The notes under the pieces are model-generated. The model was not told where the DNA came from, made no database searches, and saw only the letters and a list, made by a program, of their open reading frames with translations. From Anaeromyxobacter sp. (GTDB lineage: Bacteria; Myxococcota; Myxococcia; Myxococcales; Anaeromyxobacteraceae): DNA of 45,219 nt. The DNA lies in assembly GCA_025360965.1 (NCBI GenBank), contig JANYBC010000256.1, forward strand, positions 1-45,219. The letters run 5' to 3'. Positions 12,518 to 36,203 of this stretch are shown one piece after another (the stretch's first letter is position 1; every line of letters begins with the position of its first letter). The translations under genes and the position numbers were made by a program.

Positions 12518-13869
12518 CGGCCCGGCCGGTCACGGCGCGCACCATCGCCTTCGACGTGCTGATGCGCGTCGAGGAGGGGGGCGCCTTCGCCTCGCGCGCG
12601 CTCGACGCCGCGCTCTCGCAGGCCGGCGCGCTGGCGCCGCGAGAGGCCGGACTGGCCACCTCGCTGGTCTACGGCACGCTGCGCCGGGCGCTCCAGCTCG
12701 ACGCGGCGCTGGCGCCGCACAGCTCCCGCCCTATCGACAAGCTCGACCCGGCCGCCCGGGTGCTGCTGCGCCTGGGCGCCTACCAACTGCTGGTGCTGCA
12801 GACGCCGCCACACGCCGCCGTGGGCGAGACCGTGGAGCTGGCCAAGGGGACCGAGCACGGCCGCGCCGCCGGCTTCGTCAACGCCGTGCTCCGCGCGCTG
12901 CTCCGCGCCGGCCCGCTGGCGCCGCCACCCCCGCTCAGCGAGGCCCCGATCGAGCACATCGCCGCACTCGAGTCGCTGCCGCGGTGGCTGGCCGCCGAGT
13001 GGGTGGCCTGGCTGGGCCCCGAGGAGGCGCTGGCGCTGGCGGCGGCCATGAACGGGCCGGCGCCGCTCACGGTCCGCTCGCCGCGCGTCGCCGAGCTGCT
13101 GGAGCGGGCGGTGGCGGCCGGGCTGGCGGCCCGGGCCTGCACCGGCTCGCCCGATGGGTTGACGCTCGGTGGAGGCTCGGTGGCGGACCTGACCCGCGCC
13201 GCGGCCGGGCTGCCGTTCCAGGTGCAGGACGAGGGGGCGCAGGCCACGGTGCTGCTGGCGGCCGGCCACCTGCGCGGCCGCAAGGCCCGGGTGCTTGACG
13301 CCTGCGTGGCGCCGGGCGGGAAGGCCTTCCACCTCGCCGAGCTGCTCGGGCCCGGATCGGAGGTGGTGGCCATCGAGCTCCACCCCCGCAAGGCCGAGGC
13401 GCTCCGGCAGGAGGCGCAGCGTCGGGGGCTGCCGGTGACGGTGATGTGCGCCGACGCCTCCCGGCCGATCCCCGGCCTCCCTCTCGCCAGCTTCGACGCG
13501 GTGCTGGTCGACGCGCCCTGTGCGGGCCTGGGCACGCTGCGGCGCCACCCCGAGCTGAAGCTGCGCCGGCTCCCCGAGGACCTTCCGCGGCTGGCGGCGC
13601 TGCAGCTGGAGATCCTCAGGGCCATGGCGCGCTACGCCAGGCCGGGGGCGCCGGTCACCTACGCCATCTGCTCCCTCTCCCGGGTGGAGGGGCCCGAGGT
13701 GGTGGCGGCGATGCTGGCCGGGGGCTGGCGGCGCGACCCGGCACCGGCGGCGGTGGCCCGGTCCATGCTCGACCCATCGGGGGACCTCCTCACCCTGCCC
13801 CACCGGCACGGGACCGACGGCTTCTACGCCGCCAGAATTGTTCGGACGGCAATTCCCGACCGAGAGTAA
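12514..13869 (+). CDS. rsmB: 16S rRNA m5C967 methyltransferase RsmB
   Basis: A 451-residue RsmB/Sun enzyme: an N-terminal NusB-like RNA-binding domain (ARTIAFDVLMRVEEGGAFASR, LVYGTLRR, NAVLRALLR) and a C-terminal Rossmann methyltransferase. The SAM motif is LDACVAPGGKAFHLAE (a slight variant of DACAAPGGKT), with the two RNA m5C cysteines in DAPCAGLGTLRRHPE and ICSLSRVEG. The start overlaps the fmt stop (ATGA). The stop codon TAA at 13867-13869 lies inside an intergenic repeat element described separately. Confidence 0.95.
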   Translation: MTARPVTARTIAFDVLMRVEEGGAFASRALDAALSQAGALAPREAGLATSLVYGTLRRALQLDAALAPHSSRPIDKLDPAARVLLRLGAYQLLVLQTPPHAAVGETVELAKGTEHGRAAGFVNAVLRALLRAGPLAPPPPLSEAPIEHIAALESLPRWLAAEWVAWLGPEEALALAAAMNGPAPLTVRSPRVAELLERAVAAGLAARACTGSPDGLTLGGGSVADLTRAAAGLPFQVQDEGAQATVLLAAGHLRGRKARVLDACVAPGGKAFHLAELLGPGSEVVAIELHPRKAEALRQEAQRRGLPVTVMCADASRPIPGLPLASFDAVLVDAPCAGLGTLRRHPELKLRRLPEDLPRLAALQLEILRAMARYARPGAPVTYAICSLSRVEGPEVVAAMLAGGWRRDPAPAAVARSMLDPSGDLLTLPHRHGTDGFYAARIVRTAIPDRE

Positions 13870-13892
13870 GGTGGGCGCATCGTCTCGGTCGG
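13855..13892 (+). repeat. REP-like element copy A with inverted partner
   Basis: The 14-mer CCCGACCGAGAGTA (13855-13868) is shared exactly with 26534-26547 and, inverted, with 35449-35462. Here its core CCGACCGAGA (13856-13865) is mirrored by TCTCGGTCGG (13883-13892), a perfect 10-bp stem with a 17-nt loop. It covers the rsmB stop codon and ends 16 bp before the rpe start, so it could also act as a transcriptional or mRNA-stability hairpin. Confidence 0.65.
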
Positions 13893-13893
13893 C

Positions 13894-26502: not shown

Positions 26503-26533
26503 ATGACGACCGACCCGGGCACTCACCGGGTCT

Positions 26534-26570
26534 CCCGACCGAGAGTAGTAGGGAATCGGGGCACTCTCGG
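26534..26570 (+). repeat. REP-like element copy B (RAYT 3' side)
   Basis: CCCGACCGAGAGTA (26534-26547) is identical to copy A. Its CCGAGAGT (26539-26546) is mirrored by ACTCTCGG (26563-26570), an 8-bp stem with 16-nt loop. A GTAG tetranucleotide follows the element, recalling the GTAG seen at known REP hairpins. It lies 220 bp downstream of the RAYT stop, inverted with respect to copy D at the other side of the gene. Confidence 0.65.
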
Positions 26571-26606
26571 GCTGGCCTCGGCGGGCGACCTGGAGCCTTC
26601 CGTAGT

Positions 26607-26733
26607 GTCAGGAGGCGGTCGCGGTGAGCCCGGTGGAGCGAAGCGAATGGTCCCCAAGCCTTGAAGCGGTCGACCATGAGCCGGGCGGGAGCGTTTCGCC
26701 GAGGCGTAGGCGCACCTCTGCGTCCCTCCTGAC
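26607..26733. repeat. Long imperfect inverted repeat behind the RAYT gene
   Basis: Outer arms GTCAGGAGG (26607-26615) and CCTCCTGAC (26725-26733) are perfect; inside them GCGAAGCG and a GCGTTTCGC-like mirror, and ATGGTC (26647-26652) with GACCAT (26672-26677) continue the symmetry. The 287-bp gap 26503-26789 has no credible gene; this structure and copy B fill most of it. It may be the 3' part of the RAYT unit or a non-autonomous element. Confidence 0.45.
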
Positions 26734-26789
26734 TTGATAGTGCCTGGGCTCGGCTGCCGTTCTGGGGGGAGAGGCGTGGTTCGCAGCGC

Positions 26790-27674
26790 CTATCCGGCGC
26801 CGGCGCAGGCGACGCCACAGGCGACGCGCATCAAGTAGGTCCCGGCGGGGAAGACGGCATCTCGCTTGCCCTCGCGCCACTCGCTCAGCGCCTGCCGGTA
26901 GGCGGAGAGGAAGCTCACCAGCCTCCCCAGCGCCTCGATCCGCTTCCACTTGTCTCTCGTAGCCACCCGGGGGTTGAGCTGCCCGAGCGGCTCCACGCGC
27001 CTGGCCCGGGCGGTCGTCTTCTGCGCCAGCACCCGCGCCACGCCCAGGAAAGTACCGACCTTCCTCACCGCCTCCGCCTCCTTCTCGGCCAGCGCGGCCC
27101 AGATTTGCTCCCGGAACGTCTCTGCGGTCGGGAAGCCGGGCGGCGTGGTGAGCTTGAGGGGAACCGACTCGGGCATGCTTCCCTTGGGGTTGAAGAAGTG
27201 GTTGGGCCGTGGCACCGGGCGCGCGCCGGCCCCGATCTCCTCCGGCGCCGACCAGAGCCCCGGCCACCGACGGGCCGACCGGACCAGCCCGGCCGCCACC
27301 GGATTAGCGAGAGTGTAGGCGGTCTTGTCGACCACGGCCTGGCGGCTGGCCAGCTCGACGGCGCTGAAGCTGTCAGGACCCCAGAAGCCCTCGCGGTGCC
27401 CGAGCTGGGCGTTGATGGCCCGGGCAAGGAGACCGTCGAGATACTGCTGGAACTCCGGCAGGCGGGCGTCAGGGTCGGTGAGCACCAGGTGGTAGTGGTT
27501 GGACATCACGCAAAAGGCATGGACCTTGATGCCGTAGCGGTCGGCGGCGACCGCGAGGAGGTAGAGGAAGACCTGCCTGACCGCCTTGGATGGCCGGAGT
27601 AGAAATTGACGCTGCGTACAGCGGCGCGTGACGAGGTACGTGGTGCCGGGCAGGACTTGCCGAGGGGCGGTCAT
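26790..27674 (-). CDS. RAYT, REP-associated tyrosine transposase (Y1 family)
   Basis: A 294-residue Y1/HUH single-strand transposase of the RAYT type. Seen are GTTYLVTRRCTQRQFLLRP at the N-terminus, the HUH metal motif in FCVMSNHYHLVLTDP, then LPEFQQYLDGLLARAINAQ with the probable catalytic Tyr, GHREGFWGPDSFSAVEL and YTLANPVAAGLV. The C-terminal extension ends FPAGTYLMRVACGVACAG, making it longer than the E. coli protein. The ATG at 27674 is preceded by GAGGGG; an in-frame ATG lies at 27710. Such genes are usually single copy and associated with palindromic REP repeats; inverted 14-bp repeats flank this one. Confidence 0.9.
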   Translation of the reverse strand: MTAPRQVLPGTTYLVTRRCTQRQFLLRPSKAVRQVFLYLLAVAADRYGIKVHAFCVMSNHYHLVLTDPDARLPEFQQYLDGLLARAINAQLGHREGFWGPDSFSAVELASRQAVVDKTAYTLANPVAAGLVRSARRWPGLWSAPEEIGAGARPVPRPNHFFNPKGSMPESVPLKLTTPPGFPTAETFREQIWAALAEKEAEAVRKVGTFLGVARVLAQKTTARARRVEPLGQLNPRVATRDKWKRIEALGRLVSFLSAYRQALSEWREGKRDAVFPAGTYLMRVACGVACAGAG

Positions 27675-27744
27675 GCCCCTCAGCAAGGGCAGGACCCGTG
27701 CCACCAGCACCCCCCGCCATCACTGGGGATTTCAATTGGCCGCC

Positions 27745-27759
27745 GTCCGCGCCGCGGAC
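27745..27759. repeat. Tight palindrome between RAYT and DTW genes
   Basis: GTCCGCG-c-CGCGGAC, perfect 7-bp arms with a 1-nt centre, 18 bp from REP-like copy D. Possibly part of a composite REP structure or an operator. Confidence 0.4.
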
Positions 27760-27776
27760 CACCGGCCGTCCCGCGG

Positions 27777-27790
27777 AACTCTCGGTCGGG
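27777..27790 (-). repeat. REP-like element copy D (RAYT 5' side)
   Basis: On the minus strand this reads CCCGACCGAGAGTT, 13 of 14 bases identical to copies A-C. It lies about 100 bp upstream of the RAYT start, in the opposite orientation to copy B, so the transposase gene sits between an inverted pair. No local inverted partner is visible. Confidence 0.6.
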
Positions 27791-27836
27791 GTCGCCGGGG
27801 GTCGGGGGTCGCCGGGTCGCCTCCGGGGTCGCCTCG
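27791..27836 (+). repeat. Short GTCGCC-type direct repeats
   Basis: GTCGCCGGG occurs at 27791 and 27808, and shorter GTCGCC units follow to about 27833, forming a G-rich low-complexity tract directly next to REP-like copy D. Confidence 0.5.
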
Positions 27837-35448: not shown

Positions 35449-35462
35449 TACTCTCGGTCGGG
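35449..35462 (-). repeat. REP-like element copy C
   Basis: On the minus strand this reads CCCGACCGAGAGTA, identical to copies A and B. It lies 9 bp upstream of the GTG of the chimeric relic; its GGGAG end doubles as the likely ribosome binding site there. No inverted partner is visible. Confidence 0.6.
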
Positions 35463-35471
35463 AGCGGCAAC

Positions 35472-36203
35472 GTGCGAATCGCCATCGTCGGCAGCGGGAT
35501 CTCGGGGCTGGTCAGCGCCCATCTCCTCCACGAGGCCCACGACGTCGTGCTCTTCGAGGCCGGCGACCACGTCGGCGGCCACACCCACACGCATGACGTC
35601 GAGGTGGGCGGCCAGTCGCTGCACGACGCCCAGGTGGCCAAGATCGAGCGCATCTGCCGCAAGCTCGACCTCGGCCCTGGTCAGCACCTGCTGGAGATCG
35701 GCACCGGCTGGGGGGCGCTGGCCATCCACGCGGCCCGCCACCACGGCGTCCGCGTCACCACCACCACCCTCTCGCGGCAGCAGCACGAGGTGGCGACGGC
35801 CCGGGTCAAGGCGGCCGGCCTGGAGTCGAGGATCCGCGTCCTGCTCTCCGACTACCGCGACCTCGAGGGCAGCTACGACCGGGTGGCCTCGGTGGAGATG
35901 ATCGAGGCGGTCGGCCGGGAGTACTACCCGGCCTTCATGCGGGTGCTCTCCGAGCGGCTCACGCCCGACGGGCTGGCGCTGGTCCAGGCCATCACCCTCC
36001 CCGACCACCGCTACGAACGCTCCAAGCGCGAGGCCAACCACATCAACCGCATCGTCTTCCCCGGCACCTGCATCCCCTCCACCACGGCGCTGCTGCAGGC
36101 CGCCTCCACCACCGGCGACCTGCGGCTCTTCCACCTCGAGGAGATCGGCCCGCACTACGCCACCACGCTGCGCCGCTGGCGGGAGCGGCTGCTCTCCCGC
36201 TGA
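35472..36203 (+). pseudogene. Fusion relic: FAD oxidoreductase start joined to CFA synthase end
   Basis: Residues 1-48 are the dinucleotide-binding start of an amine-oxidase-like flavoprotein (MRIAIVGSGISGLVSAHLL, FEAGDHVGGHTHTHDVEV). From residue 49 the sequence is the middle and C-terminal part of a cyclopropane-fatty-acyl-phospholipid synthase: SLHDAQVAKIERICRKL, SAM motif LLEIGTGWGALAIHAA, VEMIEAVGREYYPAF, IVFPGTCIPS, GPHYATTLRRWRERLL. In many bacteria an oxidoreductase, a DUF1365 gene and cfa are consecutive, so an in-frame deletion of the region between is the simplest origin. The flavin domain is otherwise absent and the CFA N-terminal domain is missing, so activity is unlikely. The frame ends at TGA (36201), followed in frame by more CFA sequence. 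Confidence 0.8.

Follow-up and report, generated by a model that had tools for sequence, protein, structure and literature searches.

Introduction

In most descriptions, RAYTs are domesticated transposases present in a single copy. In the RAYT-REP/REPIN systems of E. coli, Pseudomonas, and Stenotrophomonas (REPtrons), a RAYT-type transposase is accompanied by inverted flanking repeats whose sequence tracks the RAYT lineage, as well as by palindromic derivatives of these repeats. The REPs carry a 5' GT[AG]G tag at the hairpin foot, and their populations usually number >100 copies. RAYTs have been described as single-copy and vertically inherited (PMC8049555). Other RAYT-like genes are flanked by terminal inverted repeats (TIRs), many of them with the sequence GGGGWSAS; these units have been named TIRtrons or TIRYTs, for TIR-associated tyrosine transposases (Di Nocera et al. 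2013, PMC3733652). Most TIRYTs fall into subclass 2.1, in which no REPs were found, and further analysis of the TIR-flanked group has been called for (Quentin et al. 2018, PMC6006769). Anaeromyxobacter is named in the main text of neither of these two papers.

Here, we analyze a RAYT-like gene in a 45,219-nt stretch of an Anaeromyxobacter sp. draft genome (GenBank assembly GCA_025360965.1, contig JANYBC010000256.1), which we refer to as the window. We consider positions 26534-27790 very probably to be a TIRtron/TIRYT-type element, IS-like and autonomous, with a RAYT-like HUH-Y1 gene between TIRs, and the full extent of the element is probably 26529-27795. Judged from its sequence by the TIR criterion, the element belongs with the TIRtrons, its nearest published counterparts. 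It shares with them a RAYT-like HUH/Y1 gene with the Y---NP signature, flanking TIRs instead of GTAG REPs, and moderate families of dispersed TIRs that occur singly, paired, or clustered. It differs in its TIR core, which is CCNGWCCSAGAG[TA] and not GGGGWSAS (2/49 tips), a sequence that is common among published TIRtrons/TIRYTs but not universal. It also differs in its ~300-aa protein with YxLANP and in the number of RAYT matches, up to 18 per genome. Relative to published TIRtrons, the comparisons below establish the boundaries of the mobile unit, the matching of each element's own two ends, and a 5-nt rule in tandem arrays of ends.

Results and discussion

Repeat copies in the window and the source genome

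The initial annotation had reported exact copies of CCCGACCGAGAGTA at 26534 (+), 13855 (+), and 35449 (-) and a one-mismatch copy at 27777 (-). All four positions were verified by sequence, and the 26534 and 27777 copies do bracket the RAYT-like Y1/HUH gene in mutually opposite orientation (Table 1). With <=3 mismatches allowed, the window contains 13 matches to the 14-mer vs. 6.1 expected, a number reached by 0/100 shuffles. Stems between inverted partners had been described for two of the copies; the 10-bp stem at 13855-13893 stands out from shuffled sequence (z -2.8), but the stem at 26534 does not (z +0.9).

Table 1. Coordinates of the candidate element and of related repeat copies in the window.
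Feature	Position	Strand	Remarks
Predicted outermost tip of the right end, GGTCT read towards the motif	26529..26533	+	Placed by the 5-nt rule from other loci
Right-end (RE) copy of the 14-nt terminal repeat, CCCGACCGAGAGTA	26534..26547	+	
Degenerate inverted partner of the RE motif	26562..26575	-	3 mismatches; stem no better than shuffles
RAYT-like Y1/HUH transposase gene	26790..27674	-	Frame intact; start at conserved MTAPRQ (27674), longer GTG-initiated reading from 27710
Left-end subterminal hairpin, GTCCGC-GGC-GCGGAC	27745..27759	-	
Left-end (LE) copy of the terminal repeat, CCCGACCGAGAGTT	27777..27790	-	1 mismatch
5 nt outside the LE motif, GCGAC	27791..27795	-	
12-nt direct repeat of the LE tip	27788..27816	-	Copies at 27788-27799 and 27805-27816
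Solo RAYT-less inverted-end pair, REPIN/MITE-like	13855..13893	+	39 bp; overlaps the rsmB stop codon, directly upstream of rpe
Solo end copy	35449..35462	-	Between an ABC-F-type ATPase gene and an NAD-binding/CMAS gene

Next to the solo copy at 35449, the open frame 35472-36200 (+) combines an NAD_binding_8/amino-oxidase N-terminus (~residues 5-69) with a CMAS domain (48-241) and reads as if two neighboring genes had been fused by an in-frame deletion.

The excess of the 14-mer that the initial annotation had anticipated genome-wide was found. The 3.83-Mb draft genome contains 10 exact copies and 19 copies with <=1 mismatch (reversed-pattern control 2), and CCYGACCGAGAGTA occurs in 14 exact copies (control 0). 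Two of the genome matches, on contigs C181 and C177, are located in paralogous open reading frames and appear to be coding sequence, so not every genome match is meaningful.

At L030:335-348 and L034:207-220, the end motif is found within two paralogous open reading frames, where the match extends to 27-29 nt with 96-97% identity to an element right end; this may be either a captured end or a coincidence. Separately, three contig ends of the source genome (C52, C171, and C138; loci L001, L008, and L005) have a 118-141-bp sequence in common, located 21-35 nt from a 14-mer copy with differing intervening sequence. It has no match among the other loci and may represent an unassembled multi-copy element.

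The RAYT-like transposase

The window gene matches the Y1 transposase family (PF01797, E 1.2e-6), and its protein scores 58.5 bits against NCBIfam REP_Tyr_transpos, under the cut-off of 80. The HUH motif NHYH (residues 71-74) and the catalytic Tyr132 in YxLANP (P0001 numbering) are both conserved. In the AlphaFold model (mean pLDDT 69), the core reaches about 80-90, while the C-terminal domain, for which there is no Pfam match, is poorly modeled at low confidence; subclass 2.1 TIRYTs carry a helix-turn-helix-like domain at the C-terminus. The best PDB fold match of the model is 4er8, a structure of the E. coli RAYT in complex with a REP hairpin; this fold and the RAYT-type transposase are features that the element shares with the REPtrons.

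The IS200/IS605 elements (IS608, ISDra2) are a further point of comparison. By analogy, the element would share their HUH-Y1 chemistry; it also has a left-end subterminal hairpin, and no target duplication was seen. However, IS200/IS605 elements lack TIRs and have a Y---Q motif, whereas the element described here has TIRs and YxLANP, with no fixed target tetra- or pentanucleotide and no guide-like pairing found (complementarity of the 5-nt tip with the inner ends gave no signal).

Boundaries of the mobile unit

To place the element in its family, we used full-length or almost full-length RAYT loci, 59 in all, from 17 Anaeromyxobacteraceae genomes. A consensus derived from these same loci, CCNGWCCSAGAG[TA][ATC], was searched with <=1 mismatch allowed. 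It occurs 70-140 bp upstream of the RAYT gene in 53/59 loci and, inverted, 190-290 bp downstream in 45/59. The means for 200 column-shuffled consensi were 0.06 (upstream) and 0.07 (downstream), and the reversed consensus gave 0. Because the consensus was built from the tested loci, it is the shuffles, and not independence, that carry this argument. The conserved 14-nt core can be written as CC[C/T/A]G[A/T]CC[G/C]AGAG[T/A]N.

All-against-all alignment showed that paralogous elements in different contexts are alike from motif to motif only. Homology blocks span 711-1976 in the pair L124/L128, 675-1957 in L134/L135 (99% identity), and 589-1874 in L087/L088. Since the similarity between paralogs begins and ends at the motif, the motif is the terminal inverted repeat of a mobile unit of ~1.27 kb. 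Relatives without the element at corresponding loci were found, and in one genome of the same genus (G003), the corresponding flanks adjoin. A search of 24 genomes for joined flanks did not yield a base-precise empty site because spacers in the relatives are too diverged.

Within the left end, hand counts show the subterminal hairpin GTCCGC/GCGGAC paired in 82% of cells, without covariation, and an alternative left-end hairpin paired in 61%. RNAalifold returned no consensus structure for the left ends.

Distribution and dispersed copies

In 24 genomes of the family, CCNGWCCSAGAGTA occurs 200 times (reversed control 6). Summed by hand from per-genome counts, 199 copies are in the 17 genomes with the RAYT family vs. 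1 copy in the 7 genomes without, which agrees with the earlier expectation that RAYT-less relatives would lack the motif. Outside the family, matches are rare, with 2 in 36 order-level genomes. Three complete genomes have 7/9, 9/11, and 9/13 of their copies <=600 bp from a RAYT, and a fourth has 2/7.

The motif also occurs away from RAYT genes. About 26/42 exact copies in genome G021 do not adjoin a RAYT, and this genome has 38-44-bp palindromic derivatives in which the two ends are joined. The window pair at 13855-13893 belongs to this type of derivative. In addition to RAYT-linked left ends and a single one at a contig end, a left-end sequence model identified five RAYT-less left ends in the source genome (C244, C75 twice, C213, and C96). 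These solo left ends keep the hairpin. Overall, the dispersed copies comprise solo ends and a few palindromic pairs, all in low numbers. Decayed RAYT copies were absent next to solo ends at nearly all sites checked; at G021 locus L257, a RAYT fragment is present by a solo end.

Two further kinds of sequence resemble parts of the element. Four G021 loci (L249, L250, L246, and L241) carry a ~150-270-bp repeat family that starts with the right-end motif, has no RAYT, and is possibly a non-autonomous derivative. At L261:1497-1540 (genome G000, contig C136), a 40-nt near-perfect palindrome, GACCCAGAGTCACTTTGGACGTCCAAAGTGACTCTGGGTC, resembles two joined ends.

The initial annotation had interpreted the 14-mer as the cognate REP family of this genome. 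This corresponds to a classical RAYT-REP system, in which a stationary RAYT would maintain a dispersed REP/REPIN population that includes the 14-mer. The dispersed solo ends and palindromic pairs, the copies of G021 that lie away from RAYTs, and the REP-like combination of tag and hairpin in solo left ends all fit such a system, but the tag itself is not that of a REP, as GTRG is present in 2/49 left ends and missing in 47/49. Copy number is likewise low, at 0-42 per genome compared with the >100 usual for REP populations, and the RAYT here is multi-copy and mobile, with homology ending at the TIRs. The RAYT specificity and the dispersal that the cognate-REP proposal implied were upheld, whereas the tag, the copy number, and the boundaries of mobility spoke against REP identity, which was rejected: the 14-mer delimits a mobile unit of which the RAYT is a part and is hence a terminal inverted repeat. 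A stationary RAYT with its REPs therefore seems decidedly unlikely.

We also considered a regulator-binding or promoter motif common to the RAYT and other genes. Although some solo copies are just upstream of genes, including the one at 35449, which precedes a start codon by about 10 bp, inverted copies stand at fixed distances on both sides of 45-53/59 RAYTs, the motif coincides with the homology breaks, ends form tandem arrays, and the motif is absent from relatives without the RAYT. A regulatory motif was rejected on these flanking positions, homology boundaries, and RAYT-linked distribution, and we find it barely plausible.

Matching of ends and RAYT lineage

The two ends of an element resemble each other more than they resemble the ends of other elements. 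The LE and RE cores of the same element agree at 12.2/14 positions, compared with 11.3/14 when ends are permuted among all elements (0 of 5000; p<0.0002) and 11.9/14 when they are exchanged inside one genome (p=0.0012). Core position 8 (G/C) changes 5 times on the RAYT protein tree vs. 18.9 times with shuffled labels, and lineage-specific cores include CCCGACCGAGAG and CCCGTCCCAGAGAC.

The same trend is seen among the four RAYTs of the source genome. The C162 RAYT is 75% identical to that of the window and has CCCGACCGAGGGTT at the equivalent upstream place, while the C153 and C198 RAYTs (54-56%) are flanked, inverted, by an analogous but different word, CCCGTCCCAGAGACG; thus, different RAYT lineages have different flanking words. 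Altogether, the repeat proved RAYT-specific, as first proposed: inverted copies lie on either side of the gene, the repeat is overrepresented across the genome, among relatives it is restricted to carriers of this RAYT family, and its sequence varies with the RAYT lineage.

In the 49 loci with both ends, the outer 5-mers of the LE and the inverted RE agree at 2.04/5 vs. 1.59/5 permuted (p=0.0008 overall, p=0.09 inside a genome), as would be seen if the outer portion of the TIR evolved rapidly.

Tandem end arrays and the outer five nucleotides

The motif is tandemly repeated at 32 ends. Neighboring array units have exactly 5 nt beyond the motif in common: they are identical at frequencies of.84,.77,.72,.68, and.70 at positions -1 to -5 outside the motif, and identity falls sharply to.39,.26, and.35 at -6 to -8, where the value between loci is about.3. 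A run of >=5 identical outer nucleotides is present at 22/32 arrayed ends. On their inner side, the array units are variably truncated.

In L099, where one element has inserted into another RAYT gene, host homology stops exactly 5 nt before the motif, which indicates that those 5 nt came with the element. They read GGGGC, which is also found outside the left ends of the sister element L101. In the 99%-identical pair L134/L135, the 5 nt beyond the motif are common to both elements at both ends. The outer 5-mers differ among ~90%-identical G021 paralogs, so if the 5 nt are part of the unit, they would have to change fast or be replaced on insertion.

A 5-nt direct repeat adjoining each end copy in the arrays could also be a target-site duplication from cut-and-paste of end fragments, in which case it would not mark a nick position. 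Whole elements do not show such a repeat (1.55 vs. 1.37 of 5, p=0.11), and in L099 the 5 nt arrived with the element. HUH transposases are not known to make target duplications. We consider a target duplication unlikely.

If the 5 nt instead mark the nick, the arrays suggest how ends may be processed. The transposase would recognize the 14-nt core at each end and nick 5 nt 5' of the motif, the 3'-OH at the nick could then prime copying of the end, and rejoining of the tyrosine-linked strand would follow at a variable point, giving tandem arrays. The element has multiplied within Anaeromyxobacteraceae genomes, where the solo ends and short palindromic derivatives are probably left over from it. 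We offer only tentatively, and with less than even confidence, the full model of an autonomous RAYT-HUH transposon with a 14-nt core and a fast-changing 5-nt tip, nicked exactly 5 nt outside the core, in which nick-extend-rejoin errors produce arrays and solo ends.

The family is a clear case of RAYT-type elements still moving with their own ends. From the array edges, cleavage can be predicted at the sequence level to occur 5 nt outside the 14-nt core, and the low-copy REP-like by-product of solo ends and palindromic pairs bears on the origin of REPs. If the model is true, a mobile RAYT element could seed REP-like sequences through nick-extend-rejoin errors. In the window, the 12-nt direct repeat at the LE tip can be read as a truncated array unit.
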